Source of the DNA: Patescibacteria group bacterium
GTDB taxonomy: Bacteria; Patescibacteriota; Minisyncoccia; Moranbacterales; DUUL01
Assembly (NCBI GenBank): GCA_015493225.1
Contig: WGDO01000013.1
Location: forward strand, 1-34,134
Direction: 5' to 3'
Length of the DNA: 34,134 nt
Shown here: positions 3,031 through 33,530 of the stretch, piece by piece
How the letters are laid out: each line of letters starts with the position of its first letter
Numbering within the stretch: the stretch's first letter is position 1
Notes under the pieces: model-generated
What the model saw: the letters and a program-made list of their open reading frames with translations, nothing else
Told to the model about the DNA's origin: nothing
Database searches by the model: none
Translations under genes and position numbers: made by a program

Positions 3031-3115
3031 AGAGTCCTTAAAGTCCTTAAAGTCTATAAAGTCTATAGAGTCCCCACGCACTTTTGACTTTATAGACTTT
3101 ATAGACTTTTGACTT
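3031..3115. repeat. AAAGTC-family repeat in gene-less hairpin form
   Basis: Direct AAAGTC words read into a hairpin: 3050-3072 pairs with 3086-3108 at 22 of 23 positions, leaving a 13-nt loop. The same type of arm encloses the S23 gene at 4666-5013, so this looks like a deletion derivative without cargo. Confidence 0.7.
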
Positions 3116-3315: not shown

Positions 3316-4587
3316 ATGATTCAAAAAATATTAAAAGATGATTTTGTAAAACATAATATAATTCTTTTTTCCGGGTCAATGATTGTGGCTGTTTTGAATT
3401 ACGCCTACCATCCGATTTTAAGTCGGATGATGAGTGTGGGTGATTTTGGTGAAGTGCAGGCCTTGATTGCCATTTTTTTACAAAGCGGAGTTTTGTTGGG
3501 AATTTTTGGAACCATTGTGGTTAATCTAACGGCCAACAGTAACAGTGATTCGGAAAATTTATCCTTGATAAATCAACTCTACAAAATAGCGATGATTACC
3601 AGTTTGGTTTTGACGGTTGGTATTATTATCGGAACACCGTTTTTGAAAAAGTTTTTGCAATTTCATTCGGTTTGGGCTTTTTGGGTTTTAGCCCTGTCTT
3701 TGCCCTTGAGTGTTTCTCTGACTTTTCGTCGTTTTTTTCTGCAGGGCAAAAAAGAGTTTTTAAAAAATTCTTTGGTAAGCATTTTTTATGCTGGCGGGCG
3801 TTTAGTAATAGCTGTTTTTTTGGTTTGGCTGGGCTGGGCGACGGTGGGAGCAATCGGTGCCATCACTCTTACCACTTTTTTTTCTTTATTTTATGCTTAC
3901 AAAATTACTCACAAAGAATTAAAATTATCTCTCAGAGAAAAAGTTGTTTTCAATAAAAAACTGAAGGAAGAGTTTCGTTATGGGATTTTGATTTTTTTGG
4001 TAACTGCTTTTGTGACTTTTCTCTATACGGCGGATATGATTTTTGTGAAGCATTATTTTTCTCCGGAGATTGCCGGTTTCTATGGCGGAGTAGCTACCAT
4101 TGCTCGGATAGTTTATTTTATAACTGGTTCGGTGGTGGGAGTATTGATTGCCTCGGTTAAAATAAAGGACTCTTGGCAAGAAAATAAAAGAGTGCTGTTA
4201 AAGGGATTGATTATTATTTCTTTGATTGGGGCAAGTGTTACCGGAATATTTATTTTGTTTCCGGAACTAGTGATTAAACTAATGATTGGGCAACGGTATG
4301 TGTCGTATGCTTATTTATTGCCTCGAATGGCCATTTTGTTATTTTTAGTCAGTTTAAGTAATCTTTTGTTAATGTTTTTCTTGGCCTTGAGAAAATATTT
4401 TATTATTAAAATTGTTATAATCGGGGCGTTGTTTATTACCTTGACAACAGTCTTACATCATGCTACTTTGATAAGCATAGTGGATAATTTTTTGGTGGGA
4501 AGTGTTGGAGTGATAGGGTGGCTGGGATATAAAGTCCGTAAAGTCAATCCTACTTCGCTGAAGCTTCGCGGGACAAGAAGTCCGTAA
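3316..4587 (+). CDS. Polysaccharide/oligosaccharide flippase, Wzx-like (MATE superfamily)
   Basis: The 423-aa product is almost entirely hydrophobic with roughly 12 predicted transmembrane helices and an N-terminal region (HNIILFSGSMIVAVLNY followed by HPILSRMMSVGDFGE) typical of Wzx/RfbX polysaccharide exporters. Such proteins move undecaprenyl-linked glycan units across the cytoplasmic membrane, which fits its position at the head of a glycosyltransferase cluster. ATG at 3316 has no obvious ribosome-binding site. The last 15 or so residues (VRKVNPTSLKLRG...) are read from an AAAGTC repeat and a CTTCGC hairpin inserted at the 3' end, and the stop TAA falls inside a repeat unit. The natural C-terminus was therefore probably altered. 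Substrate unknown. Confidence 0.85.
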   Translation: MIQKILKDDFVKHNIILFSGSMIVAVLNYAYHPILSRMMSVGDFGEVQALIAIFLQSGVLLGIFGTIVVNLTANSNSDSENLSLINQLYKIAMITSLVLTVGIIIGTPFLKKFLQFHSVWAFWVLALSLPLSVSLTFRRFFLQGKKEFLKNSLVSIFYAGGRLVIAVFLVWLGWATVGAIGAITLTTFFSLFYAYKITHKELKLSLREKVVFNKKLKEEFRYGILIFLVTAFVTFLYTADMIFVKHYFSPEIAGFYGGVATIARIVYFITGSVVGVLIASVKIKDSWQENKRVLLKGLIIISLIGASVTGIFILFPELVIKLMIGQRYVSYAYLLPRMAILLFLVSLSNLLLMFFLALRKYFIIKIVIIGALFITLTTVLHHATLISIVDNFLVGSVGVIGWLGYKVRKVNPTSLKLRGTRSP

Positions 4588-4665
4588 AGTCCATAAAGTC
4601 TAAAGTCAAAAGTCCGTAAAGTCCATAAAGTCTATAAAGTCCATAAAGTCTAAAGTCAAAAGTCT
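4531..4665. repeat. AAAGTC-family repeat array, with a CTTCGC hairpin unit
   Basis: Runs of AAAGTCCATAAAGTC-type units occupy the flippase 3' end and the gap up to the S23 start codon. A short unit at 4549-4575 (CTACTTCGCtgaaGCTTCGC type) recurs inside the gene at 11479 (about 13808-13835). Confidence 0.75.
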
Positions 4666-5060
4666 ATGAAGATTGATAAATTTGAAGATATTATTGCTTG
4701 GCAGAAATTAAGAGAATTAACAAAAGACGTCTATGGGTTATTCAGAGATAGTAGGGATTTTGGATTCAAAGATCAAATTCAAAGAGCAAGTGTTTCAATT
4801 ATGAATAATATTGCGGAGGGGTTTGAGAGAAGAGGAGATAAAGAATTCAAACATTTTTTATTTATTGCTAAAGGATCTTGTGGAGAAGTTCGTTCAATGC
4901 TTTATCTGGCAATTGAGTTAAAATATATTTCACAAGAAGAATTTATAAGATTAAATAATTTAACAACGGAAATTTCTAAAGTACTGTCAGGATTTATAAA
5001 AACTCTAAACTAAATAAGTTTGGACTTTATAGACTTTATGGACTTTATGAACTTTCGACT
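4604..5060. mobile_element. S23 gene cassette bounded by 40-bp inverted repeats
   Basis: The arm 4604-4643 matches the reverse complement of 5021-5060 at 37 of 40 positions. Between the arms lies only the four-helix-bundle gene. Both arms are made of AAAGTC units. The layout resembles bacterial 23S rRNA intervening sequences, where an S23 ORF sits in the loop of a stem, but here it stands alone between two glycan genes. Mobility is inferred. Confidence 0.6.
4666..5013 (+). CDS. Four-helix bundle protein, S23 / 23S rRNA intervening-sequence protein family (copy 1)
   Basis: The 115-aa product has the hallmark features of the family: the FEDIIAWQKLRELT start, MNNIAEGFERR in the middle and the SCGEVRSMLYLA helix, at the family's usual length. 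It forms a small helical bundle related to the Avd protein of diversity-generating retroelements; the biochemical role of stand-alone copies is unknown. A second copy at 9455-9802 aligns without gaps across the whole length with long identical stretches. ATG 4666 follows directly after the repeat arm, and no ribosome-binding site is visible. The inverted AAAGTC arms suggest that it travels or is maintained with this repeat family. Confidence 0.92.
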   Translation: MKIDKFEDIIAWQKLRELTKDVYGLFRDSRDFGFKDQIQRASVSIMNNIAEGFERRGDKEFKHFLFIAKGSCGEVRSMLYLAIELKYISQEEFIRLNNLTTEISKVLSGFIKTLN

Positions 5061-8201: not shown

Positions 8202-9299
8202 ATGACATACAATAAAAATATTCCATATAATGATTTACCACTTTTGCCACCAAAGGTTAATTTTGACGATGTAGAATTGTTAAAATTGGTAAATAAAGCA
8301 AATAATTCTATTTTTGAATTAAAAGGAATTACAAATATTTTACCAAATAAGTTTATTTTATTGTCACCTTTGTCAGTAAAAGAAGGTGTTGCCAGCAGTG
8401 GTGTGGAAAATATAAATACAACAGTTGCGGAAGCTTTAAAAGCTGATATATTATATGAAAAATCTGAGTTATCTGGAGCGGAAAAGGAAGTCTTGAATTA
8501 TAGAGAGGCTATTTTTAGTGGTTTTGATATTTATAGAAAAAAAGGATTTCTTGCCACAAATGATATTATTAAAATTCAGTCTGTATTAGAGCCAAACAAA
8601 AAAGGGATTAGAACAATTCCGGATGTGAAAATTAAAAACACTAAAACAAATGAAGTGATATATTCTCCTCCTGCCGGAAAGGATTTTATCTTAGATAAAT
8701 TGCAAAATTTTGAACAATATTTTAATAATGAAGATGGCTTTGATGATTTAGACCCTTTAATAAGAGTTGCTGTTATGCATTACCAGTTTGAGGCGATACA
8801 TCCGTTTTTAGACGGCAACGGTAGAACAGGTAGAATTTTAATGGTGCTATATTTAACGATGATGAAACGATTGGATGTACCAACGTTATTTATCAGTAAA
8901 TATATTTTGGATACAAGAGATAAGTATTATAAACTTCTTGCGGGAATTACTGAAAATAATGATTGGTTAAAATTTGTAAAGTATATTATCAAAGGGATTG
9001 ATTCTCAGGCCAAGGAAACTGCAAAAAAGATTTTAGAAATTCAGAATCTTATTGAAAATCAAAAGGAAACTGCTCTTAGTAAAGATAGTAAAATTTTAGA
9101 TGATTATAAAATGACAGAATATTTATTTTCAAGTCCATTTTATACGCAGGAAAGATTATCTAAATTTATGAATGTGCATAGAAATACAGCGGCTAGGTAT
9201 TTTAAAGAATTAGAAAGAATTGGATTGATAGAAAAATTCAAGTACAAGAATGAAAATATTTATTATAATAAGAAATTTCTAAATTTATTGAGTTATTAG
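8202..9299 (+). CDS. Fic family AMPylator-like protein with N-terminal inhibitory motif and C-terminal winged helix
   Basis: The 365-aa product starts with a Fic_N-type region. The segment SSGVEN (65-70) fits the inhibitory (S/T)xxxE(G/N) motif of class II Fic proteins. The full catalytic motif HPFLDGNGRTGR begins at His200, so NMP transfer (usually AMP from ATP to a hydroxyl side chain of a target protein) is expected. Residues from about 300 to the end form a winged-helix-like DNA-binding domain (RLSKFMNVHRNTAARYFKEL). It could bind the palindromic half-sites at 8123-8181 and regulate its own gene. Targets are unknown. Neighbours are glycan genes unrelated to it, and direct repeats of the GT4 gene end flank it, so it was probably acquired. 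No separate antitoxin gene is visible. Confidence 0.93.
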   Translation: MTYNKNIPYNDLPLLPPKVNFDDVELLKLVNKANNSIFELKGITNILPNKFILLSPLSVKEGVASSGVENINTTVAEALKADILYEKSELSGAEKEVLNYREAIFSGFDIYRKKGFLATNDIIKIQSVLEPNKKGIRTIPDVKIKNTKTNEVIYSPPAGKDFILDKLQNFEQYFNNEDGFDDLDPLIRVAVMHYQFEAIHPFLDGNGRTGRILMVLYLTMMKRLDVPTLFISKYILDTRDKYYKLLAGITENNDWLKFVKYIIKGIDSQAKETAKKILEIQNLIENQKETALSKDSKILDDYKMTEYLFSSPFYTQERLSKFMNVHRNTAARYFKELERIGLIEKFKYKNENIYYNKKFLNLLSY

Positions 9300-14400: not shown

Positions 14401-15333
14401 CCGGTGCTTGGGATGAAAAGAATTACAGTCGAAAGTCGAAAGTCCAAAGTCGAAAGTCAGAAGGATAAATATGCATTGCAGTTTGAGGCGACTAGACATA
14501 CTGCTTGCTTGAGCCAAAAAGGAATACCCGTCAAGGGAAAAACAGAATACTTGTTTGAGTTTGATTATCAAGGCGAAAAAGCCAAACAAGCCGGTTATTA
14601 TATTATTTTTAATGATAGTAACAAAACAGTTATTAACGAAAAGGTTCCTATCACCGAAAAAGATTGGCAAACTTTTCATAAGCGATTTACCACTCCGGCA
14701 GATGCTACCAGTATGACTTTGTATATTTACGGATATTCTAAAGATGAAAAAACAAAAGTTATTACTCGCTATGACAATTTTAAACTGATTGAGCTACCCA
14801 ATATTGCCAACAGATATTATTTGGTGAGTGAATCTGAAGTGGAAACAGCCAAACCAAAAGAAACGACCTTTGATCTCATCAACCCAACCAAAAAACTGGT
14901 GCATATTAAGGGTGCGACAAAGCCGTTTTATTTAACCATGAGCGAGAGCTATCACGACAAATGGCAAGCCGAGCTTAACAACGGTAAGGTCAATGGATTC
15001 TTTAAGAGCTGGGTGCCGTTTGTTCATCCTGATGTAATTGCCAATGATAAACATTTTAAGTATATGACATTTTTGAATGGGTGGTATATAAATCCGCAGG
15101 ATTTATGTGAGTCAAAAGTCAAAAGTTTACCCCGTCGGATGACTTGGGGTCAAAAGTCTATAAAGTCAGGTTGTACAAAAAACCCTGATGGCTCATATGA
15201 TATTGAGATGGTTATTGAATTCACCCCTCAAAGATATTTTTACTTGGGATTATTGATATCGGGTATTACTTTCATAACCCTGATTGGATATTTAGGGTAT
15301 GATTTTATTCGCCGTCGTAAAAATATCTTGTAG
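11479..15333 (+). CDS. Giant GT-C-like membrane protein with two carbohydrate-binding-like modules
   Basis: The 1284-aa product has about 12 N-terminal transmembrane helices (to residue ~400), a long extracytoplasmic region and a last transmembrane helix (about 1253-1277) before a RRRKN tail. An acidic first loop (FNGDWGYLF) and overall plan suggest a GT-C enzyme using a polyprenyl-linked donor, comparable in plan to AftD/DUF3367-type arabinofuranosyltransferases; this is inference. Two homologous modules (about 717-907 and 947-1107, sharing VGDC.HYDD, ALQ.EAT.H.AC.SQK and AKQAG.Y) look like CBM4/9-type sugar-binding domains. Repeats are inserted in frame at about residues 760-793, 982-995 and 1211-1231. 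The last 104 bp of the coding end recur at 15623-15726, beyond the GIY-YIG gene. Start overlaps the upstream GT2 by 4 bp. Confidence 0.8.
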   Translation: MKFILKQIRKKIFYIILILISILFYHKWFTSAIFFNGDWGYLFKTSMIDTSHFYVWEAFNHIGTLPVALFKMPVDFLMALFVHVLSPEMVIKIFYFYPIIFILPIGAFLLVKEIVEDNLSSFVGAIIISFNTYFLSINTAGHLGLIVANSFALLGLFLFFTYINNNYKNHKVLLSSFLLLTLSGFYDFRVFYIYFFIMFFYEIFNFKNNNSYLKFKNFILIGVITIFLNTFWILGILKSGRLSANEVLSRPLFGDQFWSLLYAITLYHPFWSGSKPEWFILHNIPVLFYLTPLLSFTAIFLFNKNKQLIFWSVIGLLGIFLSKQSDSPFVNVYQWLYDNFPGFNAFREATKFYILIILSYAILMSFLVGKMKLFFNKYVQILFAVGISCLFLWNGIPMVNGEIKTIFTQRNIPTDYVMFNNFLKRDTFFSRVLWIPTISTWMFYSNKHPQLAIGSIDNNRWMKILDINPVDNNNIQSINVLNSHSANLILDILNVKYVIVPIESSDEDIDFFVQYGLKQNPNIRQWYIDQLDKLDYLQKIDIGTKELVVYENKDYKPYIRGIDNLLAFNSTKNLEDKYSFVNDTLYKDFDFLVKNEKKKIPSENVIQVFEDAKSEDIKSNEVVDVESVGHKDILYRNPNKRDLVIKTADDKSEIVAIKKERLIVNGKELVDKDNTQTIFTLNDDYYNYYIKDGGTVIPFVNNARLNSEVPNEIYKMVADNVIKNGDFNNSLWQDKVGDCHHYDDGAVLSMKKVLGESSINLKTPHPPLREKGDDPLDPTSPDELRGTGAGGGHNYALQLEATKHIACTSQKNIPVESNKEYLVKFDYKPVNAKQAGFYLGFKNSGEENYQSYSERLATPDYTRGEWQHYAKIIRVPQGTTDLSFYLYAYESDGEENNIVQYDNVSVQPVELVQTINPEEKNSFVKVDLPKTNNGEYKLEYKDEQHNFANKIPNPSFENGLWAKKVGDCNHYDDNPVLGMKRITVESRKSKVESQKDKYALQFEATRHTACLSQKGIPVKGKTEYLFEFDYQGEKAKQAGYYIIFNDSNKTVINEKVPITEKDWQTFHKRFTTPADATSMTLYIYGYSKDEKTKVITRYDNFKLIELPNIANRYYLVSESEVETAKPKETTFDLINPTKKLVHIKGATKPFYLTMSESYHDKWQAELNNGKVNGFFKSWVPFVHPDVIANDKHFKYMTFLNGWYINPQDLCESKVKSLPRRMTWGQKSIKSGCTKNPDGSYDIEMVIEFTPQRYFYLGLLISGITFITLIGYLGYDFIRRRKNIL
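13757..13857. repeat. In-frame C-rich plus CTTCGC repeat in module 1 of the giant protein
   Basis: TTAAAAACCCCCCATCCCCC, a CCCCTTCGCGAAAAGGGG hairpin and GATCCTACTTCGCCCGATGA follow each other. They add about 33 residues (PHPPLREKGDDPL...) at a point where homologous module 2 carries a different repeat. Confidence 0.75.
14424..14463. repeat. In-frame AAAGTC repeat in module 2 of the giant protein
   Basis: AGTCGAAAGTCGAAAGTCC and further units encode VESRKSKVESQKD, between the KR.T and YALQFEA parts of the second module. Confidence 0.7.
15110..15170. repeat. In-frame AAAGTC/ACCCCG repeat near the 3' end of the giant gene
   Basis: GTCAAAAGTCAAAAGTTTA, the hairpin ACCCCGTCGGATGACTTGGGGT and CAAAAGTCTATAAAGTC encode SKVKSLPRRMTWGQKSIKS. 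The same composite occurs at 6997-7063 and in intergenic copies. Confidence 0.75.
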
Positions 15334-17502: not shown

Positions 17503-17645
17503 AGTCGAAAGTCCTTAAAGTCCTTAAAGTCGAAAGTCCTTAAAGTCGAAAGTCCTTAAAGTCGAAAGTCCATAAAGTCTATAAAGTTTACCCTGTTAAA
17601 GCTTTGATAGGGTGAATCCCGTCGGATGACTTGGGGTGGAAAGTT
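17499..17645. repeat. AAAGTC-family tandem array with ACCCCG-type end
   Basis: About ten AAAGTC units in the forms GAAAGTCCTTAAAGTC and CATAAAGTCTATAAAGT run from the abiEii stop. An ACCCTGTT...AGGGT hairpin and GTCGGATGACTTGGGGT follow. The composite ends match 15110-15170. Confidence 0.8.
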
Positions 17646-18998: not shown

Positions 18999-19604
18999 GA
19001 AAGACAAGCTGGTTTTTCAGAAGAAAAATCGGTTAATCGTGTTTCTTCTGAGGCTTTTCAAAATGCGGAGCGTTCCACGGTGGAAACGGCCGGACGAAGA
19101 TTTAGCGGGGAATATTATGATGAGAAAAGTACTTCTTCGGTGGAGGATTTTATGGGAAAGTCTGAGTATAAAAATCCCCCTCGGTCTAGAAATAGCATTA
19201 AATTTCCGTCAAATTCACTTCACCGGGCTATTTCTTCGCCATCTCAACAAAAGGGGAAGAAATTATCCCAGACTAGAAAAATTAGTGGAGCGGTGATTAT
19301 GCTGGTGGGGATGATTTTACTTTTTCTTTTGACGGATTTGACTTCCGTTGATATTTTTTTCTGGTTGTTCTTTTTTGCGATGTTTTGGTATAAATTAGAT
19401 TCTCGGATTTCCATTGCTGGAGCATTGATTGGACTGGTGGTCATAATGCTTCTTTCTGCCGGACAGGGCTTTGGCTGGTGGAAAACGGATAATTTGCAGG
19501 AGCAAATTGCCGTGGCTGTTTATTTCTTTTTGGTCATTGGGGTTTTGAAGCAAATTTGGGAATATAAGATGGAGTCGAAAGTCCATAAAGTCGAAAGTCT
19601 GTAA
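18951..19604 (+). CDS. Membrane protein of unknown function with long polar N-terminal region
   Basis: The 217-aa product has about 105 polar, Ser/Arg/Glu-rich residues and then four hydrophobic helices (roughly 110-128, 130-147, 151-168 and 182-203) with a short loop GQGFGWWKTDN. No family is recognised. The last residues (MESKVHKVESL) are encoded by AAAGTC units, and the stop lies in the repeat, so the original C-terminus has been replaced or extended. The gene's first 54 bp including the upstream five A residues recur at 17812-17863. It may be an accessory of the glycan locus, but nothing in the sequence shows this. Confidence 0.7.
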   Translation: MRDIKIKRRNFEVRRGERQAGFSEEKSVNRVSSEAFQNAERSTVETAGRRFSGEYYDEKSTSSVEDFMGKSEYKNPPRSRNSIKFPSNSLHRAISSPSQQKGKKLSQTRKISGAVIMLVGMILLFLLTDLTSVDIFFWLFFFAMFWYKLDSRISIAGALIGLVVIMLLSAGQGFGWWKTDNLQEQIAVAVYFFLVIGVLKQIWEYKMESKVHKVESL

Positions 19605-24405: not shown

Positions 24406-25761
24406 TTAATGCCATTCAAGCAGGGGGCCATAGGAACCATCTGCTTTCTTTAGAACGACATAGTGGGTGCCGTTTTTCCACCCACTAAAGTCTTTTCTGC
24501 CGTCAGAGTTTACATCTTTGATAACTCTGATGTTATTTATTCCCCAGCCATCAAGCCGGCCGAAAAATGGAGTTACATAACTCCATCCCTGAAGTAACCT
24601 TCCCCCGATGTTTTTGAGGACAACAACCCCGGAGTCTCCAAAACCGACAAACTCTTTTCCCCGTTTGCCGTCCATGTTCCGGAAAATTCGGAGATGTTTG
24701 TCTTTTTTCCAACCGTGGAAATTGCAAAAATTTCCGGAAAAAAGAATTTCTTTGGAGGTAAATGTTCCAGTGGGAAATCCATTGGAATCTTTTATCCCCC
24801 AACATATAAACATTTTAGTGTTGCCGATGCCAACAAAATCCTTGGCACCATCTTCGTCGATGTCTACAAACCGACGAATATGGTGGGGAATTAGCCAACC
24901 TTTGCCATGGTTATATCCAAAACCATGGATGATATAGCCATTGTCACTGGCTATGGAAAGAGTTCGGTCTCCATTGTTGTAGGCGGCCATTATACCCAAT
25001 TCCCCCATACCAACAATGTCCGGGAGGTTATCCCCGTTGATATCAATGGGTTTATCACGCTTGTGCCAGCCAACTCTCCAGCCTTGTTGATAGCCAAATT
25101 CATGAAGAACACATGAAATGGCAGAAGTACTGACTCCGTCAATACCCCAAGAAACATATACTCCCGAGTAGCCAAAACCAACAATATCATACCATTGGTC
25201 TTCGTCAAACTTGACAATATAAATAACATCTTGAGTTGGATCCCAGTTGGCAAACTGGGATGAAAGAAGAATTGGTGCTTCGGGAATGGCTGATAATGAG
25301 CCCCGAGAAAGCCACATCCCTTGATTGTCAACATATAAAGTATCGACAATTCCATCCCCATTATAATCAATCTGCCATGTCGGAAACTCCTCTGGTGGAG
25401 TTGCCGACCAGGTATTCTCTACTGGTTCGGCAATGAAATTTATCTCATTACAGAAACCACTTTTTTTTCCTGTATCGGCATAGGCTCTTACCGAACAGAA
25501 ATAGTCCTGATTCTCTGTTAGCCCCGAGAGGACATACTCCACTTTTCCACCTGTTAAAGGCGGGTTGCCGACGTCTTCGCAAAAATCATAGTCGGCGACG
25601 CTACGGGACTGGATCCCGCAGCAAATTTTATACCCGCTAAGGTTTGCCTCCGAATTTGGTTTCCAACTGAAGGTTATGTCATTGGTTTCAGTTAGCCCAA
25701 AATTGGGCATAGCCATTATTAATGTGCTGATAAAAATACTGCCTGCTAACACCTTCTTCAT
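24406..25761 (-). CDS. Secreted FN3 / FG-GAP (VCBS)-like repeat protein
   Basis: The 451-aa product has a Sec signal peptide (about 1-24, MKKVLAGSIFISTLIMAMPN), an FN3 domain (about 28-115) and then VCBS/FG-GAP-like repeats. Calcium-loop sequences such as DYNGDGIVD, DINGDNLPD, DIDEDGAKD and DVNSDGRKD are each followed by FxGxG-type strands, probably forming a beta-propeller. It has no sorting signal or membrane anchor at the C-terminus, so it is probably released or non-covalently bound to the cell surface, with a possible adhesion role. It is the only complete minus-strand gene here, has its own promoter and terminator and is visibly richer in G+C than its neighbours, which suggests transfer. 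GGGAG 9 nt before ATG may be the ribosome site. Confidence 0.85.
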   Translation of the reverse strand: MKKVLAGSIFISTLIMAMPNFGLTETNDITFSWKPNSEANLSGYKICCGIQSRSVADYDFCEDVGNPPLTGGKVEYVLSGLTENQDYFCSVRAYADTGKKSGFCNEINFIAEPVENTWSATPPEEFPTWQIDYNGDGIVDTLYVDNQGMWLSRGSLSAIPEAPILLSSQFANWDPTQDVIYIVKFDEDQWYDIVGFGYSGVYVSWGIDGVSTSAISCVLHEFGYQQGWRVGWHKRDKPIDINGDNLPDIVGMGELGIMAAYNNGDRTLSIASDNGYIIHGFGYNHGKGWLIPHHIRRFVDIDEDGAKDFVGIGNTKMFICWGIKDSNGFPTGTFTSKEILFSGNFCNFHGWKKDKHLRIFRNMDGKRGKEFVGFGDSGVVVLKNIGGRLLQGWSYVTPFFGRLDGWGINNIRVIKDVNSDGRKDFSGWKNGTHYVVLKKADGSYGPLLEWH

Positions 25762-26047: not shown

Positions 26048-27829
26048 ATGTTGTCATATTTTAAAAAACACACAATTTTATTTTTCGCTATTTTTGTAAC
26101 GGTGGTTGTTTTATGGCGGTTACTTTTGCCCGGCTATGTCATTTTACTTGATTGGCCGGCAGGTCCTTTAATCAAATTTCAGTTTAGTGATGTTATTTCT
26201 TTTATGAATGCTCCCAGTGGTTTAATTTTAACAGGGCTGAATTATTTTTTACCTGGTTGGATTATTCAAAAACTTTTAATGTTTGGGATTTTCTTTTTAG
26301 CTGTTTACTTGCCATTGAAATTATTGGGTGATAATAATTTCAAGTTATTTTCCAAAACTTCCGCCAAATATTTTTTAGCACTATTTCTGGCTATTAATCC
26401 CTTTGTCTATGAACGATTTATTGCTGGACAGTGGAGAGTATTGGTTGGTTATTTAACAGTTTTTCCTTTAATTTATTTTATTATTGAATTTCACAGTAAG
26501 GGAGTGTCTCCAGGTTGGCGTCAAGCTAGAAATATTTTTTTAACTTTACTTGTGGCTGGTTTTTTTTCTATTCATTTTTTAGCGATTGATTCTTTGATTA
26601 TTCTTTTTTATATTTTTTATAGATTATTTTTGACGGTGGGGGAGAGTGTTAAGAATCAGATTGTTATTACGGATGAAAAATCCACCCCTAACCCCTCCTT
26701 TATAAAAGGAGGGGGACTAGGTTGGTTTGGTAAAATATTTTTGGCCGGGATTGTTTTTATCATTGTCAGTAGCTATTGGTTAATTCCTTATTTTAAACAA
26801 GGTAATTCTGTGTTAAATAATTTCAACAGTGCTCATCAACGGGCTTTTGCCACTGCTCAAAATGAAGAATGGAGTGTTCTGGAAAATGTGATAGTGATGC
26901 ATGGATTTTGGGGAGAGGATCATAAATGGGTGGAGCAATTTAAATTGCCGAAAAACTCTCCTTTATTCATGGCTGGGTTTTATATTTTAATGATTTTGGT
27001 TGTTTTGGGCTTGTTTTCTTTCTGGCGAGATAAAAAATATCGTTGGTTGGCGGTCTGGTTATTTTTGTTAGGAGTGGCTAGTATTATTTTTTCTGCCGGG
27101 GTGCGAAATAATGTTTTTCAGGATATTAATCTTTGGTTGTTTAATAACATTTCTTTTTGGAAAGGATTTCGTGATACTCAGAAGTGGAGTGGAGTATTGG
27201 TGGTTGTTTATGCTTTATTGGCGAGTAAAGGGATTGAAAGTATTGATAAATTAATCAATAAGAAATTTAAGACATTTCAATATGGTAGGCAAGTTGTGAC
27301 TGCGGTAGGAATTATTTTAATTTTAATACTGACTTCCCAAATGCTTTTTGGTTTCAGAGGGCAAATTAAACCAGTTTGGTATCCCGCTGAATGGACAGAA
27401 GTTAGTCAAAAATTAATTATGGATGGAATAAAAAAGAAGGAGTCAGCTAAAATACTTTTTTTACCTTGGCATCAGTATTATTCCTTGCGATTTAATGATA
27501 ATCATTTGAGTGCCAATCCGGCTAATAATTTTTTTCCGGGAAAAATTGTTTTGGGACATAATACGGAGCTTTGGGGAATTAAATCTTTACCGGGGAATAT
27601 AGAAAATTATTCTTTTCTGGAAAAACGAATTACTTCCAACAATCCTAATCCGGAATTTATTAATGAAAGTATAAAAATATTTAAAGATAATAATATTAAA
27701 TATATTATTTGGACGAATGACTTGGTGAAATCAGATGTTTATGAATATCCTTTTTTGCAGTCTTCACTTTTGAGGAAAATTGTTGAGGAGGAGGGGGTGG
27801 GGGTGTATGAGGTGGAAAGTCGAAAGTAG
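26048..27829 (+). CDS. GT-C-like membrane protein with one repeat-encoded insert
   Basis: The 593-aa product has about 12 transmembrane helices followed by a 140-residue extracytoplasmic C-terminal domain (from about 450). The N-terminal half (WRLLLPGYVILLDWPAGP, a short acidic first loop, and NPFVYERFIAGQWRVL later) and the C-terminal plan resemble a shortened version of the proteins at 11479 and 20862. A glycan-transfer role is inferred. About residues 214-231 (KSTPNPSFIKGGGLGWFG) come from a C-rich repeat in a loop between helices, in frame. The end of the gene carries a short GGAAAGTCGAAAGT repeat (coding VESRK). Confidence 0.75.
   Translation: MLSYFKKHTILFFAIFVTVVVLWRLLLPGYVILLDWPAGPLIKFQFSDVISFMNAPSGLILTGLNYFLPGWIIQKLLMFGIFFLAVYLPLKLLGDNNFKLFSKTSAKYFLALFLAINPFVYERFIAGQWRVLVGYLTVFPLIYFIIEFHSKGVSPGWRQARNIFLTLLVAGFFSIHFLAIDSLIILFYIFYRLFLTVGESVKNQIVITDEKSTPNPSFIKGGGLGWFGKIFLAGIVFIIVSSYWLIPYFKQGNSVLNNFNSAHQRAFATAQNEEWSVLENVIVMHGFWGEDHKWVEQFKLPKNSPLFMAGFYILMILVVLGLFSFWRDKKYRWLAVWLFLLGVASIIFSAGVRNNVFQDINLWLFNNISFWKGFRDTQKWSGVLVVVYALLASKGIESIDKLINKKFKTFQYGRQVVTAVGIILILILTSQMLFGFRGQIKPVWYPAEWTEVSQKLIMDGIKKKESAKILFLPWHQYYSLRFNDNHLSANPANNFFPGKIVLGHNTELWGIKSLPGNIENYSFLEKRITSNNPNPEFINESIKIFKDNNIKYIIWTNDLVKSDVYEYPFLQSSLLRKIVEEEGVGVYEVESRK
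26680..26722. repeat. In-frame C-rich palindrome in the GT-C-like gene
   Basis: CCCCTCCTTT and AAAGGAGGGG (26692-26715) form a perfect stem around TATA, bordered by ACCCCTAA and GGACTAGGT. It encodes NPSFIKGGGLG. The amino-acid pattern and palindrome recall C-rich repeats known inside coding genes of other bacteria. Confidence 0.75.
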
Positions 27830-27876: not shown

Positions 27877-27906
27877 TTGACAATTTCAGCAAATATGTAT
27901 TATACT
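27877..27906 (+). promoter_or_regulatory. Promoter of the first modular secreted gene, with leader palindrome
   Basis: TTGACA (27877-27882) with TATACT at 27901-27906 (18 bp). The 5' leader contains ACTAATAAAATTAGT (27912-27926, palindrome) and a GGGAGGGG run 22 nt before the start codon. AT-rich palindromes at 27836-27866 lie just upstream. Confidence 0.6.
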
Positions 27907-27964: not shown

Positions 27965-28672
27965 ATGCAAAAACATTTGCTGAAAATTATGGCCTTGTTG
28001 GTCATTGTGGGAGGAGTTACTTTGGCTATGCCGGCCAAAGCATCTAGTGAAACTAGTTCTGGTGAGGCACCTATTTGCCATCTTCGGGCAAACCCTAATG
28101 AAATTAGTATTGGGGGAGGAACAACTTTAATTTGGTGGTCAACCGGAGGAGTTGTGGAAGGAAAACTTTATCCGAAAGGTTCCGATCATTTAATTAAAAC
28201 TTTTTCTGGAGACAGAGGTTGGCATTGGATTTCTGGAATTGTGGACACTCGAAAATATACTTTGGTTGTTAAAAACGAAGCTGGAAAGATGGCTAACTGT
28301 GATGCGGAGGTTGTGGTAAAGGAAAAGAGCGATAATAACAATGAAGATGTTGATAATCAAGGAGATGACTCTGATAATTCAACGGTCAAAATTGTTGTTA
28401 AAAATAAAAAACATCGACATCATCATCGTAATTCCAAGAAATACAAGAAACATAAAAAATACAGAGGTCATAGTAATAGAAAAATTTATAAAAAAATCAA
28501 GCATTGGAAAAAACATAATCGTGCCAAATACTTACAGTACAAAGCTGTATATAAAAAATATAAAGGAAGTTCTCATAAGAAGTTAAAGAAAAGATTGAGT
28601 GCCAGCGAGTATGCTATTTATAAGGAATATAAAATATATCACGAATATAAAGAATATTTACATTATAGATAA
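27965..28672 (+). CDS. Secreted Ig-like protein with Lys/Tyr-rich basic C-terminal domain
   Basis: The 235-aa product has a signal peptide (1-26, cleavage after AKA). An Ig-like module (about 37-118) contains two Cys that can pair (PICHLRANP and ANCDAEVVV) and the marks LIWWSTGG, LYPKGS, WISGIVDTR and YTL. An Asp/Asn-rich linker follows, then a 90-residue strongly basic domain from about 145, full of KYKK, HHH and KHWKK. The Ig module recurs twice in the protein at 29676, and the basic domain recurs almost unchanged in the protein at 32977. Predicted location: outside the membrane, perhaps bound to anionic polymers or DNA. No known family for the basic domain is recognised. Confidence 0.8.
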   Translation: MQKHLLKIMALLVIVGGVTLAMPAKASSETSSGEAPICHLRANPNEISIGGGTTLIWWSTGGVVEGKLYPKGSDHLIKTFSGDRGWHWISGIVDTRKYTLVVKNEAGKMANCDAEVVVKEKSDNNNEDVDNQGDDSDNSTVKIVVKNKKHRHHHRNSKKYKKHKKYRGHSNRKIYKKIKHWKKHNRAKYLQYKAVYKKYKGSSHKKLKKRLSASEYAIYKEYKIYHEYKEYLHYR

Positions 28673-28682
28673 GTGAAATTTA

Positions 28683-28736
28683 AAAAATACGCCCCTTTTA
28701 GGAACTATTTCCAGTTTCTAGAGGGGCGTATTTTTA
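28683..28736 (+). terminator. Terminator with AAATACGCCCCT stem
   Basis: AAATACGCCCCT (28685-28696) pairs with AGGGGCGTATTT (28722-28733) and a T-run follows. The same stem core ends the gene at 32977 (33499-33530). Confidence 0.8.
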
Positions 28737-28765
28737 TTGACTTTTTTAAGGTAAAATGCTATGGT
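28737..28765 (+). promoter_or_regulatory. Promoter of the HtrA-like gene
   Basis: TTGACT (28737-28742) and TATGGT (28760-28765) are spaced by 17 bp, with TGC before the -10 (extended type). Confidence 0.5.
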
Positions 28766-28816
28766 TAGTATATCTTAAAAGTATATTTGAAAGATTACAA
28801 AAATAAGATAATTATT

Positions 28817-29566
28817 ATGAAAAAAGAATTATATAAAATTGATGTAATTAAATTGGTGGTGTTAATTGTGGTCTTAACGGCGACGGCTGTTTTGGGGTTA
28901 GTTTTTGCTTTTAATTTTTTTCTAGGTCAAAAATCTACAACCGTAGAAAAAGTTACGGACAAAGTTGGCGAAAGACTGACCAAGGGGATAACTAATAAGA
29001 AGCAGGAGCAAATAACTCCAGAAAAAGCAGTTTTGAAAGCAATTAATGCTAACCGAAGTCGGGTTGTTAAAATTTATGCTAAGTTAGACAAGGCCACTGA
29101 TTTAAATGAAAGAAATGAAAAGTTTTTAGCAAGGGGTATTATTATTTCCGAAGATGGAAAAGTTGCCACTGTTAAAGGAGCTTTTCAAGCAACGGATGAG
29201 TATTCCATTATTGTTCCTGGCAAGGAAGATGTTTTTAATGTACAACCCTTGGAAATTGGCAAGCAGTTAGCTTTTTTCAAAATTCCGGCTAAGTTTAATT
29301 TAGTGGTTAATTTAGATAATTCACAACCAAAAAAAGGTGACTTAGTTGTGGCTATTGGGGGAAGGGAAAAAGATGGAATGGCTGTTGGTGAAGTTTTAAA
29401 AGTGGAGGATGTTTTAGATAATATTCTAATTACCACAACGATTCCTCCGAAAAGCATCGAAGCAGGAACGCCTTTAATCAATCAAGAAGAAAAGGTTATT
29501 GGCATTTATAGTGCCACCGATGAAAAGGGAAGAAGTTTGTTTATCGCCGGGAAGGATATACACTAG
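28817..29566 (+). CDS. Membrane-anchored HtrA/S1C-like protein without catalytic triad
   Basis: ATG 28817 is preferred over a TTG ten codons earlier. The 249-aa product has an N-terminal transmembrane anchor (about 10-36), a charged linker, and from about residue 75 a domain that follows the S1C (HtrA) order. FLARGIIISEDGKVAT corresponds to the first strands, IGKQLAFFKIPA to the DLAvLKi strand, KKGDLVVAIGG to the next, and EAGTPLINQEEKVIGIYSA to the GNSGGPL region. In each place the active residue is missing: no His after the first strands (TVKGAF), no Asp in KQLAFF, and no Ser in EAGTPL. No PDZ domain follows. Predicted to be a non-catalytic binding protein on the outer face. Confidence 0.7.
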   Translation: MKKELYKIDVIKLVVLIVVLTATAVLGLVFAFNFFLGQKSTTVEKVTDKVGERLTKGITNKKQEQITPEKAVLKAINANRSRVVKIYAKLDKATDLNERNEKFLARGIIISEDGKVATVKGAFQATDEYSIIVPGKEDVFNVQPLEIGKQLAFFKIPAKFNLVVNLDNSQPKKGDLVVAIGGREKDGMAVGEVLKVEDVLDNILITTTIPPKSIEAGTPLINQEEKVIGIYSATDEKGRSLFIAGKDIH

Positions 29567-29572
29567 CTTGAG

Positions 29573-29581
29573 TTATCCACA
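29573..29581 (+). promoter_or_regulatory. Single perfect DnaA-box sequence
   Basis: TTATCCACA, the consensus 9-mer, lies 20 bp before the -35 box of the next gene. It stands alone, so it is not an origin by itself; it may be chance or a DnaA-linked regulatory site. Confidence 0.3.
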
Positions 29582-29600
29582 GGTTACAATTTTAATTGCC

Positions 29601-29629
29601 TTGCAGGATTTAAATAACACTGTTATAAT
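29601..29629 (+). promoter_or_regulatory. Promoter of the second modular secreted gene
   Basis: TTGCAG (29601-29606) and TATAAT (29624-29629), 17-bp spacing. A GGGGGG run lies 26 nt before ATG, as in the leader of the gene at 27965. Confidence 0.6.
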
Positions 29630-29675
29630 AAAAAGGTTAAGAAGGGGGGAATATATAATAAATAAATTAGTGAAA

Positions 29676-30479
29676 ATGAAAAGTAAAATTATAGCTGGAA
29701 TTATCGCTTTGGTGGCAATGGTTATTATTGTTCCAACAAGCAATGCTTCCATGGAAGAAAATGGGGGATCAGGATATGGAGGAGATGCTCCAGCCTGTAC
29801 AATATATGCTAATCCTGACACCATTGATGTTAATGGAGCCACAACTTTAATTTGGCATGTTAATGAAAATGTTACCAGAGGATATCTTCATCCAAAAGGG
29901 TCAACTGATTGGATGCAAGAAATTGACCTAAATGGAACCTGGTGGATTTCTGGAATTGTAGATACTCGAGATTATACTTTGACTGTGAAATCTGCCGACG
30001 GACAAACTGCCGATTGTGATGCTCATATCACCGTAAACGAAGAAACAAACGAAGAATTAACTTGTGAGATGTCTGCTAATCCTGCTAGCATTGCTTCTGG
30101 AGAAGGAACAAGTCTAGTTTGGAGTTCAACTGGTAATGTAGTAAGTGCTTACTTACACCCAACTGGTTCAGAACATTCTTTTGCTGAAGTTGGTCCAAAT
30201 GGCTCTTGGTGGATTGGAGGAATTAATGATAGTAGAAGTTATAGCATTACTTTAACTGATGATGAAGGAAATACTGTAACCTGTGATGCTCCTATTACTG
30301 TAACTACCACTCATGAATGTATTGACTGGGACGGCGATGGCTGGGGATGGGATGGAGAGAAGGGATGTAAAATGCCAGATACTGAAGAAGATAACTCTGC
30401 TGCAGTTTGCTATGACTGGGACGGCGATGGCTGGGGATGGGATGGAGAAAAGGGATGCAAAATGCCAGATGTTGACTAA
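29676..30479 (+). CDS. Secreted protein with two Ig-like modules and two DGDGWGW boxes
   Basis: ATG 29676 starts a clear signal peptide (1-25, KIIAGIIALVAMVIIVPTS); an open frame further upstream is not a plausible N-terminus. The 267-aa product has two Ig-like modules (about 38-125 and 127-213; PACTIYANP...TADCDAHITV and LTCEMSANP...VTCDAPITV) with the same WWISG/WWIGG, LHPKGS and YTL/YSI marks as the protein at 27965. Two Cys-bounded boxes of the form C.DWDGDGWGWDGEKGCKMPD follow and reach the C-terminus. The acidic box could bind calcium, as DxDxDG loops do; similar boxes are, from memory, found in secreted polysaccharide enzymes of marine bacteria. Own promoter and terminator. Confidence 0.8.
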   Translation: MKSKIIAGIIALVAMVIIVPTSNASMEENGGSGYGGDAPACTIYANPDTIDVNGATTLIWHVNENVTRGYLHPKGSTDWMQEIDLNGTWWISGIVDTRDYTLTVKSADGQTADCDAHITVNEETNEELTCEMSANPASIASGEGTSLVWSSTGNVVSAYLHPTGSEHSFAEVGPNGSWWIGGINDSRSYSITLTDDEGNTVTCDAPITVTTTHECIDWDGDGWGWDGEKGCKMPDTEEDNSAAVCYDWDGDGWGWDGEKGCKMPDVD

Positions 30480-30500
30480 AAATATATAGAATATCTTTTC

Positions 30501-30531
30501 AAAAAAGCAGTTAGTAATTAACTGCTTTTTT
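30501..30531 (+). terminator. Rho-independent terminator after the second modular secreted gene
   Basis: AAAAAGCAGTTA (30502-30513) pairs with TAACTGCTTTTT (30519-30530) around 5 nt. Confidence 0.85.
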
Positions 30532-30558
30532 AATAAATATATTAGATTGATTATTTTT

Positions 30559-32061
30559 ATGAAAAACATTAAAAATTATTTTAAAAAATCCGCATTAATT
30601 TTCTTCTACTTGTTAATGTTTATTATTTTTGTAGGAGTATTTTTGAGAATAAAATATCTTGGTAGTGATAGCTATTGGCTGGACGAAGGTTTTACGTTGA
30701 TGCAGGGTAGGGGAGTGGTTAATCATGGTTACCCACTCTTAGATTCAGGTTGGATTGAATGGAAAGATTTATTGATGCCTTACCTAATAGCTCCTTTTAT
30801 TAAATTCTTTGGCTTGCAAAATAGCTTCCTTCTACGCTTACCAGCCGTAATCTTTGGTGTAGCCACCATTATTGTTGGATATTACTTGGTTAAGAGATTA
30901 TTTTCTCGTTTGACGGCTTTGATGTTTGCTATCTTCTTGTCCTTAGGTTATTGGTATATTGCCTGGAGTCAACAGGTGCGGGGCTATTCCGCTCTGATAT
31001 TTTTTGTCTTGTTGTTTTTTTATTTTTTAGTTGAACATTTTAAAAAAGATAAAACTAAATATTTATGGTTGGCATTTTGTACTATAATTCTAGCCACTCT
31101 ATCAAAGACCTTTGGCGCCTTATTGTTAGCTCCTTTTTCATTTTATCTTTTTAAAAGTAGAAAATATAAAATATTATTATTGATTACTCTCCCTAGTATT
31201 TTGGTGATGTTTTTAGCTAAAAATAAAATAAGCAATATTTTTAATCTCCAGAGAGAATTGCATTTTTGTTTCTATATTAAGCAGTATTTGTTGCATTATT
31301 TTGCTACAGTGTCCGTTTTTGGTTGGCTTGGATTATTGGCCTCTTTTTTAAATGATAAAAAAAATAGAATTATCCATGGCAGTATTTTGATATTTATGTT
31401 GGGTGCTCTTATCGTATTTTCAACGATGGTAATTGTTACCGAAGGAAGATATTTATTAATGATTACTCCTTTTTTATTTTTATATACGGCTTATTTTATT
31501 GAATACTTAACGAAAAATTTAGAACACAAAACAACTGCAACTATTTTGATATTTTTAATAGTACTATTTGCTTCTTTTATTTTTGATCATAACATCGTTT
31601 TATTTCCGCAAAAGCATTATAAGTTGGAAACAGGAACTCCACAGCCGAATTATAAACAAGCCTATGGAGTGATAAAAAAGAATGGATTTAAAAAAGAAGA
31701 TGTTATTATATCCGGCAATCCAATGATGGATTTGATTTATTTAAATAAGGTTGATTATACTATTCGTTGGTCTTTGACCGGACGGAGAGGTGATGATATG
31801 TTTAAAAATGGACAAGATATGTATACCGGGGCGGAAAAATTATATAGTCGGGACGGGCGGGGCGGAATAGAAAAAATTAAAAAACTCCAACATAAATTTA
31901 ATGTTTATGTTGTTCTTGACTCCCTGGCCTTGCATCGAATGAACCCAAAACTTAGGGAAGACATCATTCATTCCGATGGGCAGGTTATATTTAAAGAAAA
32001 GGGTCACAACGGTGTCGTCGTTTATTTTTTCAAACACACCCCGAAAAATGTGTCTTTTTAG
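30559..32061 (+). CDS. ArnT/PMT-like (GT39/GT83) membrane glycosyltransferase
   Basis: ATG 30559 is preferred over an in-frame TTG at 30547. The 500-aa product has about 12 transmembrane helices, and its first extracytoplasmic loop contains YWLDEGFTL, with the Asp-Glu pair that is catalytic in PMT/ArnT enzymes. The second loop (YWYIAWSQQVRGYS) and the LPAVIFGVATI region also fit. A C-terminal extracytoplasmic domain (from about 350) follows. It would transfer a sugar from a polyprenyl-phosphate donor, such as one made by the GT2 enzyme at 5070, to a protein or lipid outside. It lies among secreted protein genes, so protein glycosylation is possible. Target unknown. Confidence 0.88.
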   Translation: MKNIKNYFKKSALIFFYLLMFIIFVGVFLRIKYLGSDSYWLDEGFTLMQGRGVVNHGYPLLDSGWIEWKDLLMPYLIAPFIKFFGLQNSFLLRLPAVIFGVATIIVGYYLVKRLFSRLTALMFAIFLSLGYWYIAWSQQVRGYSALIFFVLLFFYFLVEHFKKDKTKYLWLAFCTIILATLSKTFGALLLAPFSFYLFKSRKYKILLLITLPSILVMFLAKNKISNIFNLQRELHFCFYIKQYLLHYFATVSVFGWLGLLASFLNDKKNRIIHGSILIFMLGALIVFSTMVIVTEGRYLLMITPFLFLYTAYFIEYLTKNLEHKTTATILIFLIVLFASFIFDHNIVLFPQKHYKLETGTPQPNYKQAYGVIKKNGFKKEDVIISGNPMMDLIYLNKVDYTIRWSLTGRRGDDMFKNGQDMYTGAEKLYSRDGRGGIEKIKKLQHKFNVYVVLDSLALHRMNPKLREDIIHSDGQVIFKEKGHNGVVVYFFKHTPKNVSF

Positions 32062-32072
32062 TAAAATTTTAT

Positions 32073-32100
32073 TTGATAAAAAATATGTATATGCTAAAGT
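32073..32100 (+). promoter_or_regulatory. Decayed promoter of the four-box gene, copy of the one at 32912
   Basis: TTGATA (32073-32078) and TAAAGT (32095-32100), 16-bp spacing, align base for base with TTGACA...TATAAT at 32912-32939. The -10 box is weaker. The 157-bp element at 32110-32266 separates it from its gene. Confidence 0.5.
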
Positions 32101-32109
32101 TGGTTAATA

Positions 32110-32266
32110 GACCTCTTGCAAAACCCTTCACTATAAAAAACCAACCTTTTTTGCTAATTTTCCTTTAAAATTTTTATCCTATGCTAAGGCATAAGAAAAA
32201 AATTATGCAGAAAAATTAACAGAAAATCTAAGCTTTTTTATTAAACAAAGGGTTTTGCAAGAGGCC
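32110..32266. mobile_element. 157-bp MITE with 19-bp terminal inverted repeats and TA target duplication
   Basis: GACCTCTTGCAAAACCCTT (32110-32128) matches the inverse of 32248-32266 with one mismatch, and TA flanks it on both sides (32108-32109, 32267-32268). No ORF. The leader of the paralogous gene at 32977 lacks it, which shows the empty site. Ends and TA duplication resemble IS5-family (IS427-type) elements; this assignment is tentative. Confidence 0.85.
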
Positions 32267-32299
32267 TAATCAAGAATTTAATATTTAATTTTAATAATT

Positions 32300-32884
32300 A
32301 TGAAACAAAATTTCAAATTATTACTTGCTGGAACTATCTCTATGTTGGTTTTTGCAATTATGGTACTAATCTCCCCAAATAATGCTTTTGGATATAGCTA
32401 TGGGTATAATTATGATGATAACTCCACTGCTGGAGAATGTGTAGATTGGGACGGAGATGGCTGGGGCTGGGACGGAGAGAAGGGATGTAAGATGGATAGT
32501 AATGACGACAATGACAACAATGATAACCAAGATGATAATGGTGATGATAACTCCACTGCTGGAGAATGTGTAGATTGGGACGGAGATGGCTGGGGATGGG
32601 ACGGAGAAAAGGGTTGCAAAATGCCTGACAATGACAATCAAGACAACGATGACCAAGATGATAATGGTGATGATAATTCCACTGCTGGAGAATGTGTAGA
32701 TTGGGACGGAGACGGCTGGGGCTGGGACGGAGAGAAGGGATGTAAGATGCCTGACAATGACAATCAAGACAACGATGACCAAGATGATAATGGTGATGAT
32801 AACTCCACTGCTGGAGAATGTGTAGATTGGGACGGAGACGGCTGGGGCTGGGACGGAGAGAAGGGATGTAAGATGCCTTCTTGA
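32300..32884 (+). CDS. Secreted acidic protein with four tandem DGDGWGW boxes
   Basis: The 194-aa product has a signal peptide (1-31, ending NNAFG) identical to that of the protein at 32977. Four boxes at residues 46-65, 89-108, 131-150 and 173-192, each C-VDWDGDGWGWDGEKG-C plus KM, are joined by Asp/Asn/Gln linkers. Each box has two Cys that could form a disulfide around an acidic, Trp-rich loop; calcium or sugar binding is inferred. The linkers are extremely acidic, the opposite of the basic domains of the sister proteins. The gene is a duplicate of the start of the gene at 32977 with expanded boxes. A MITE sits in its leader. Confidence 0.82.
   Translation: MKQNFKLLLAGTISMLVFAIMVLISPNNAFGYSYGYNYDDNSTAGECVDWDGDGWGWDGEKGCKMDSNDDNDNNDNQDDNGDDNSTAGECVDWDGDGWGWDGEKGCKMPDNDNQDNDDQDDNGDDNSTAGECVDWDGDGWGWDGEKGCKMPDNDNQDNDDQDDNGDDNSTAGECVDWDGDGWGWDGEKGCKMPS
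32423..32884 (+). repeat. In-frame tandem repeat, about 126-bp period, four units
   Basis: Units start at 32423, 32552, 32678 and 32804 (periods 129, 126 and 126), with near-identical DNA including silent positions. The last two units are the most alike, which suggests recent expansion and variable copy number. Confidence 0.9.
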
Positions 32885-32911
32885 TTAAGACACTGCTAAA
32901 GTAAAATTTAC

Positions 32912-32939
32912 TTGACAAAATACATATATATGCTATAAT
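32912..32939 (+). promoter_or_regulatory. Strong promoter of the fourth modular secreted gene
   Basis: TTGACA (32912-32917) and TATAAT (32934-32939), 16-bp spacing, with TGC before the -10. The leader to ATG is about 30 nt, AT-rich. Confidence 0.75.
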
Positions 32940-32976
32940 TAATTGATTAATAATTTAATATTTAATCTTAATGATT

Positions 32977-33465
32977 ATGAAACAAAATTTCAAATTATTA
33001 CTTGCTGGAACTATCTCTATGTTGGTTTTTGCAATCATGGTACTAATCTCCCCGAATAATGCTTTTGGGTATAGCTATAATAATAGTTCCACTGTTGGAG
33101 AATGTGTAGACTTAGATGGTGATGGCTGGGGTTGGGACGGAGAGAAAGGATGTAGAATAGACGACGGTAATGATGTGGAAGATAAGCTTGTCAAGCATAA
33201 AAAATATCGACATCACCATCATAACCCCAAGAAATACAAAAAATATAAAAAATATAAAAGCAGTCACAATAGAAAAATTTATAAAAAAATCAAGCATTGG
33301 AAAAAACATAATCATGCAAAATACCTACAATATAAAGCGGTGTATAAAAGATATAGAGGGCGTTCTTATAAGAGATTACATACAAGCCTAAGTGTTGCAG
33401 AGCGTAGTATTTATAAGGAATACAAAAAATATCGTGGATACAAAAAATATCGACAATCTAGATAG
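32977..33465 (+). CDS. Secreted protein with one DGDGWGW box and the Lys/Tyr-rich basic domain
   Basis: ATG 32977 is chosen over ATG 32971 because it aligns with the sister gene at 32300. The 162-aa product has a signal peptide (1-31), one box (Cys43-Cys59, VDLDGDGWGWDGEKG) and from about residue 72 a basic domain nearly identical to that of the protein at 27965 (for example RKIYKKIKHWKKHN.AKYLQ and KAVYK). It therefore joins modules found separately in the sister proteins. Expected outside the membrane; binding of anionic polymers or DNA is inferred. A strong promoter precedes it and a terminator follows. Confidence 0.82.
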   Translation: MKQNFKLLLAGTISMLVFAIMVLISPNNAFGYSYNNSSTVGECVDLDGDGWGWDGEKGCRIDDGNDVEDKLVKHKKYRHHHHNPKKYKKYKKYKSSHNRKIYKKIKHWKKHNHAKYLQYKAVYKRYRGRSYKRLHTSLSVAERSIYKEYKKYRGYKKYRQSR

Positions 33466-33498: not shown

Positions 33499-33530
33499 TA
33501 AATACGCCTTCCTCGGAGGCGTATTTTTTT
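33499..33530 (+). terminator. Terminator with AAATACGCCT stem
   Basis: AAATACGCCT (33500-33509) pairs with AGGCGTATTT (33517-33526), and T residues follow. Related in sequence to the terminator at 28683-28736. Confidence 0.85.

Follow-up and report, generated by a model that had tools for sequence, protein, structure and literature searches.

Modular secreted proteins of a Patescibacteria genome: CBM10-like boxes, a conserved pseudoprotease and a candidate C-terminal surface-retention domain

The stretch of DNA analyzed here (the window, 34,134 nucleotides) is contig C13 of the draft genome of a Patescibacteria group bacterium of the order Moranbacterales (1.31 Mb, 91% complete). Between 27965 and 33465 it carries four genes, designated A to D, whose products are assembled from three kinds of module: immunoglobulin-like (Ig) domains, short boxes bounded by cysteines, and a basic C-terminal tail. 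These genes are a real, lineage-specific set specifying modular secreted proteins, and on balance we favor the view that the products are glycan-binding surface proteins held at the envelope by a new C-terminal domain. A preliminary description had listed four secreted-type open reading frames (ORFs) sharing three modules, with HtrA-like and PMT-like genes between them, and all of these were recovered: each of the four ORFs begins with a signal-peptide-like segment, and an HtrA-like gene and a PMT_2/GT39 gene sit among A–D. Nor are the modules confined to cytoplasmic proteins, since secretion or membrane signals were present wherever the N-terminus was readable. How Patescibacteria display proteins, or adhere to surfaces or to host cells, is for the most part unknown, and the lack of cultures makes study difficult. 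The C-terminal domain, which we consider the most valuable part of the locus, is recognizable in sequence and would predict which proteins are displayed, and the purified domain is workable without culturing; next in value, as a second handle on surface biology, is the conserved pairing of an inactive HtrA with an Ig/CBM10-like protein.

Gene A (27965–28672; features are on the + strand unless otherwise stated) specifies a signal peptide, one Ig-like domain (28070–28324; E 3.4e-37 with profile A1, which includes A's own sequence) and the tail, which runs to the last codon (28394–28669). Gene D (32977–33465, alternative start 32971) specifies a signal peptide, one box (33094–33165) and a second such tail, again up to the last codon (33187–33462). 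The tail had been taken for a mere basic stretch; it is instead a folded domain of some 80 residues, here called the KY domain. A profile made from the two window tails alone picked up homologs in a further nine genomes belonging to the order, and the refined profile places the domain in 14 of the 131 genomes that represent the order; a sample of 380 genomes from the phylum, with few genomes of the order in it, yielded no KY domain beyond that of the window's own genome. Twelve KY sequences could be aligned over some 80 residues, and certain Tyr and Lys positions do not vary among them. Using leave-one-out profiles the real sequences scored 54–82 bits and their shuffles (300 each) at most 9.4 bits, a difference too large for composition to explain the match. 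These scores, together with a confident predicted fold, led us to reject the idea that the tail is of low complexity. AlphaFold, applied to the two sequences only, predicts five helices (predicted local distance difference test, pLDDT, 86.6; predicted template modeling score 0.72). The domain had no sequence match in Pfam, NCBIfam or the PDB, a Foldseek comparison of the model with the PDB gave a best E of 6.4, and no relative was found on viral contigs.

In 14 of the 15 KY proteins readable to the stop codon the domain ends 0–4 residues from the C-terminus. The ectodomains which precede it are diverse, and include DUF285, Big_13, purple-acid-phosphatase-N/fn3, chitobiase-type, GDSL lipase and untyped repeat regions, or almost nothing. 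It is Tyr-rich and its net charge, +25 and +29 in A and D and between +8 and +29 among its members, suggests an anionic ligand. Because it is C-terminal, secreted, cationic and common to unrelated ectodomains, the KY domain is best read as a putative retention or sorting domain. Tentatively we would go further and propose a new surface-retention domain specific to this order, in which a cationic five-helix unit of about 80 residues at the extreme C-terminus may attach to the anionic envelope without a transmembrane helix, a sortase-type motif or repeats. A functional parallel may be the CWB2-type attachment of proteins to an anionic polymer of the C. difficile wall (PMC4973711), the proposed likeness being the non-covalent holding of diverse secreted proteins through a common domain; KY, however, is unrelated in sequence, present as a single copy, nearly always terminal and strongly basic. 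With PEP-CTERM (PMC1569441) it shares a C-terminal homology region found on diverse signal-peptide proteins and sporadic within lineages. It differs in being a folded domain for which no partner enzyme was found and which has neither a processing motif nor a hydrophobic transmembrane segment, so that the combination of motif, transmembrane helix and basic tail seen in PEP-CTERM and LPXTG proteins was not found.

Gene B (29676–30479, alternative GTG start 29670) specifies a signal peptide, two Ig domains (29790–30041 and 30057–30305, both delimited by profile and AlphaFold) and two boxes (30309–30380 and 30399–30470). Gene C (32300–32884) specifies a signal peptide and four boxes (32429–32497, 32558–32629, 32684–32755 and 32810–32878) separated by acidic linkers. 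The box is 24 residues long with the pattern C-x-DxDGDGWGWDGEKGC, and the Trp-Trp pair of its GWGW element is invariant in the box profile (A10). A box from another genome of the order, G439 (DPDGDGWGWENNKSC, L182), matched CBM_10 over the gathering score (E 5.7e-6), and in a set of 26 boxes three matched it (best E 9.4e-8). Compared with the PDB, the box profile scored best with the xylanase A CBM10 (1e8r, E 0.024), with which it aligns as GDGWGWDGekSC/TNGWGWEDQRSC, that is, over the GWGW...SC core containing both binding-face Trp residues (PMC8121702). We therefore regard the box as a probable shortened relative of CBM10 with an EF-hand-like DxDxDG loop, although the homology is weakly shown. 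The likenesses to CBM10 (PF02013) comprise the GWGW[DE]xxxxC core, the spacing of the second Cys, two of the three binding-face aromatics (PMC8121702), occurrence in tandem and attachment to GH5. On the other hand CBM10 has some 36–45 residues and the box has only one Cys pair, its first half is the EF-hand-like loop, and its carriers here are non-enzymatic surface proteins. The three planar aromatics (Tyr, Trp, Trp) of a canonical type A CBM10 are incomplete, the Tyr-bearing first half being absent; non-canonical CBM10s without this Tyr do exist (PMC8121702). Since the window boxes by themselves match no Pfam model and lack the first Tyr, they are better described as "CBM10-like" than as classical CBM10. 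Searches of the window proteins against Pfam plus NCBIfam missed both the box and the KY domain, and a text search of the literature for the motif letters DGDGWGW returned no paper.

Boxes are not peculiar to the Patescibacteria, as a genome scan found them in Granulosicoccaceae, a Chromatiales symbiont, a Robiginitomaculum record and Acidimicrobiales, where they are attached to fasciclin, subtilase and unnamed secreted proteins. In genome G439 the box was matched 18 times, and the proteins that carry it, of which there are at least eight, include a GH5 cellulase and a sugar dehydrogenase of the GSDH+PKD type (L175, L178, L182 and L169).

The DxDxDG residues would fit positions 1–6 of an EF-hand loop, and it might be argued that the box is a calcium-folding spacer of the Excalibur kind with no part in glycan binding. 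The C-x-DxDGDG...C pattern is in keeping with this, as is a weak, sub-threshold match of the Excalibur model to a related box protein (E 0.076), and an Excalibur domain, disordered in the absence of calcium, becomes folded when it binds the ion (PMC5137146). Like the Excalibur domain of CbpL (PMC5137146), the box is a small extracellular disulfide-linked DxDxDG loop in modular surface proteins whose wall-binding modules are separate. Its GWGW core and Cys spacing are nevertheless distinct, the profile match is not significant, and the DxDxDGxxCE signature of Excalibur (PF05901) is incomplete, no CE following the DxDxDG. The CBM_10 match of the boxes is far stronger than that to Excalibur. Furthermore, the loop appears to be dispensable within the family, because boxes of L154 carry PPLGNG in its place; since these and like variants (CIDTPPLGNGWGWDGQQSC) lose the loop and keep GWGW...SC, the invariant part of the box is apparently the Trp core and not the calcium loop. 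We accordingly consider a pure spacer role doubtful, and continue to prefer a CBM10-like module.

The gene immediately upstream of B (28817–29566, alternative start 28787) specifies a membrane-anchored protein homologous in sequence to HtrA/DegS (Trypsin_2 E 1e-5, just under the cut-off; DegS model 4.8e-7; PDB DegP-like 7e-4). While its earlier designation as HtrA-like is appropriate, it can hardly be an active protease: the catalytic His, Asp and Ser columns are G, Q and A in the window, no triad position is intact in any of the five orthologs, and six true HtrAs of the order retain all three residues. The HtrA-like protein forms a group of its own, five genomes scoring 120–361 bits with its profile and every other HtrA of the order less than 47. 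The same five of the 131 genomes hold a strong match to the Ig protein (hypergeometric 3e-9, not corrected for relatedness), and the two genes are adjacent in L025, L077, L078 and the window. The simplest reading is that the protein is a dedicated non-catalytic partner of B. MamO, a repurposed pseudoprotease of the trypsin/HtrA type (PMC4794232), resembles it in combining an HtrA-family fold with loss of protease function and a new envelope-linked role, but belongs to another lineage and gene context; in the present case none of the three catalytic residues survives, and an Ig/box protein is the proposed partner.

Both Ig domains of B are predicted beta-sandwiches (AlphaFold pLDDT about 90) with a Foldseek probability of 1.00 to many tandem Ig structures, and a Pfam search of the window proteins matched no Ig family. 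The preliminary description had recommended looking for its module combinations in other genomes. A protein with the exact Ig-Ig-box-box layout of B, 63% identical and in the same neighborhood, was indeed found in a genome of another family (G434); the architectures in two others are different. The Ig protein of G008, a member of the same family as the window genome, has four Ig domains and no box, and that of G439 consists of an Ig domain, one window-type box, several boxes of a second type (YC...DxxGxGWGDTxSxExGC) and another Ig domain. As these differ from B, the B lineage evidently gains and loses modules too, over a longer time scale. Boxes of this second type, in the fuller form YCSxxYPGRxxxDxxGxGWGDTxSxExGC, alternate with Ig domains and acidic linkers in L026 (3–929) and L078 (8759–10159, − strand).

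The order membrane gene, HtrA-like gene, Ig protein is common to the window, G008 and G434, and the sole departure in the window is the placing of A between the first two. G439 has its HtrA-like gene immediately 5′ of an Ig/box gene, and in G049 the membrane and HtrA-like genes are near a contig end and an Ig/box gene opens another contig. The first gene of this neighborhood (26048–27829), recognized by ortholog comparison, specifies a multi-pass, GT-C-like membrane protein scoring 116 bits with NCBIfam MmpA, below that model's cut-off of 210. Its orthologs lie immediately 5′ of the HtrA-like gene in L025 (39%) and L077 (41%), and with one small ORF intervening in L125 (35%).

Downstream of B, gene 30559–32061 specifies a predicted membrane glycosyltransferase of the GT39/PMT family (PMT_2 1.8e-13 and PMT 6e-5, both over the cut-off). 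In a genome of another family (G436, L126) a relative of this gene is found immediately 5′ of a D-like gene for a signal peptide and a KY domain, and in G008 (L140/L159) a GT39 gene lies 5′ of a KY gene which is decayed, or broken near the contig end. Three genomes encode a fused GT39-GH8 enzyme in the vicinity of box or Ig proteins (that of the window, as the next gene on C69; G049, C9; G439, C25), and the GT39 protein of the window is separate from and smaller than this fusion. The fusions (L030 1016–3655, L028 2096–4747 and L078 1387–4101) represent an unusual pairing of membrane glycosyltransferase and glycanase.

According to the model which we favor, signal peptides would carry A–D across the membrane, whereupon the KY domains of A and D would bind an anionic envelope polymer non-covalently and keep both proteins on the cell, as their charge and C-terminal position on diverse secreted proteins suggest. 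The boxes may bind polysaccharide, and would be presented singly on an anchored protein (D), as a pair on an Ig-Ig stalk (B), and as a soluble four-valent linker (C). Co-occurrence, adjacency and the loss of catalytic residues argue that B would work with the adjoining membrane-anchored pseudoprotease, probably a docking, chaperone or export partner rather than a cleaver. The GT39-type transferase, judging from its position, may glycosylate A–D. The adhesive function raised in the preliminary description is plausible given a CBM10-like box; the localization, ligand and calcium binding of A–D are predictions from sequence.

Several observations weigh against this model. B and C are without a KY domain that would account for their retention, and in the one exception among the 15 proteins (L167) the domain follows the signal peptide instead of being C-terminal. 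With only one or two KY proteins in each genome, numbers are low for a general sorting system (the median for PEP-CTERM is eight). The association of GT39 with KY was seen in three genomes, in one of which the KY gene is decayed, and the co-occurrence of pseudoprotease and Ig protein comes from related genomes of two families, so that 3e-9 overstates their independence. As to the boxes, AlphaFold gives them a pLDDT of less than 50, those of the window have no Pfam match and the link to CBM10 is direct only for a few divergent ones, and since the first Tyr and one disulfide of classical CBM10 are missing, cellulose binding should not be assumed.

The strong positive charge of the KY domain, its Tyr content and its helical nature would also suit a secreted nucleic-acid- or polyanion-binding domain engaged with, for example, biofilm matrix or DNA capture instead of anchoring to the cell's own envelope, though the data name no polyanion. 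We think this unlikely: the basic charge of some members is mild (+8 to +12), and a near-universal C-terminal placing behind very different ectodomains fits a retention tag better than a binding head.

The sharing of modules among the four genes is far over chance. The modules had been called near-identical, which is true of the seven boxes (70–100% DNA identity in a repeat search of the window) and of the signal-peptide block common to C and D. This block comprises 133 nucleotides at 95% identity and takes in the upstream region (leader and signal peptide, 32269–32401, copied in front of and inside D). It is not true of the tails of A and D, with 79% DNA identity over 277 nucleotides and 67% protein identity, nor of the Ig domains (A-Ig/B-Ig1 49%, A-Ig/B-Ig2 39%, B-Ig1/B-Ig2 42%). 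Because each B Ig domain shares 65–67% identity with the Ig domain at the corresponding position in another family, the Ig modules of the window evidently parted long ago; a tree of the Ig domains was little resolved. D combines the signal block of C, a box and the tail of A, and C consists of the signal block and a box amplified fourfold, the result being a 126-nucleotide tandem array (score 784, 92% matches). Given the GT39-KY order in G436 and G008, and that C has the upstream DNA and signal peptide of D, an amplified box and no tail, D is likely the original gene behind the GT39 gene of the window and C a later derivative. Module duplication in the local lineage gave rise to A, C and D, and B and its neighbors were inherited. 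Evolution by module exchange, as first envisaged, thus applies to the local recombination seen in C and D; wholesale recent shuffling is rejected for B and the Ig domains by the architecture and neighborhood of B in another family and by Ig divergence.

Could this mosaic be mostly neutral, repeat expansion and duplication having produced C and D with B alone functional? The array of C is nearly perfect and recent, its promoter-like site is degraded (32073–32100, a 9/12 consensus match), and a MITE-like (miniature inverted-repeat transposable element) insertion lies between that site and C (32108–32268, no strand assigned). D, by contrast, has a perfect (12/12) promoter-like TTGACA-16-TATAAT (32912–32939) and a terminator-like hairpin (33500–33526), a comparable KY gene follows GT39 in another family (L126), and the protein sequence of the boxes remains intact, all of which makes neutrality distinctly improbable. 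The MITE-like element is flanked by TA, has 17-nucleotide terminal inverted repeats (GACCTCTTGCAAAACCC) and is present in the genome as five full-length copies, that of the window included, plus one which is split; the region upstream of D appears to resemble an empty site, the joint being imperfectly aligned.

The proposal that A–D are structural subunits of a surface layer, for which secretion, repetitiveness, acidity, calcium-loop-like boxes and a glycan locus might be cited, is very improbable, since the window proteins have no S-layer or SLH match in Pfam or NCBIfam, are small, occur in few related genomes and vary freely in box number (two to four or more), and S-layer proteins usually dominate and stay conserved within a lineage.

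Gene A has a promoter-like site upstream (27877–27906, 11/12, a consensus match only) and a terminator-like hairpin downstream (28693–28726). The contig abounds in glycan genes, and those 5′ of the locus specify a protein of the polysaccharide flippase type, glycosyltransferases of families GT2 and GT4, and a membrane protein with CBM_4_9; within this cluster are a Fic-domain (SoFic-like) protein (8202–9299) and an ankyrin-repeat protein (1715–2731). Just upstream of the locus, on the opposite strand, is a gene for a secreted protein with fn3 and FG-GAP repeats (24406–25761, −). Arrays of the 9-nucleotide unit AAAGTCC[A/T]T occur on both strands, mainly in intergenic DNA (3031–3109, 4531–4650, 5023–5055, 15153–15167, 17508–17579 and 19578–19592; 21 matches versus 0.02 expected). 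Finally, an in-frame repeat, STPNPSF[IT]KGG / PPLTPPLKKEG, is present within coding genes, namely 26048–27829 (residue ~214), L029 (6442–7171) and L030 (1–742), and resembles palindromic elements inserted in genes of some other bacteria.

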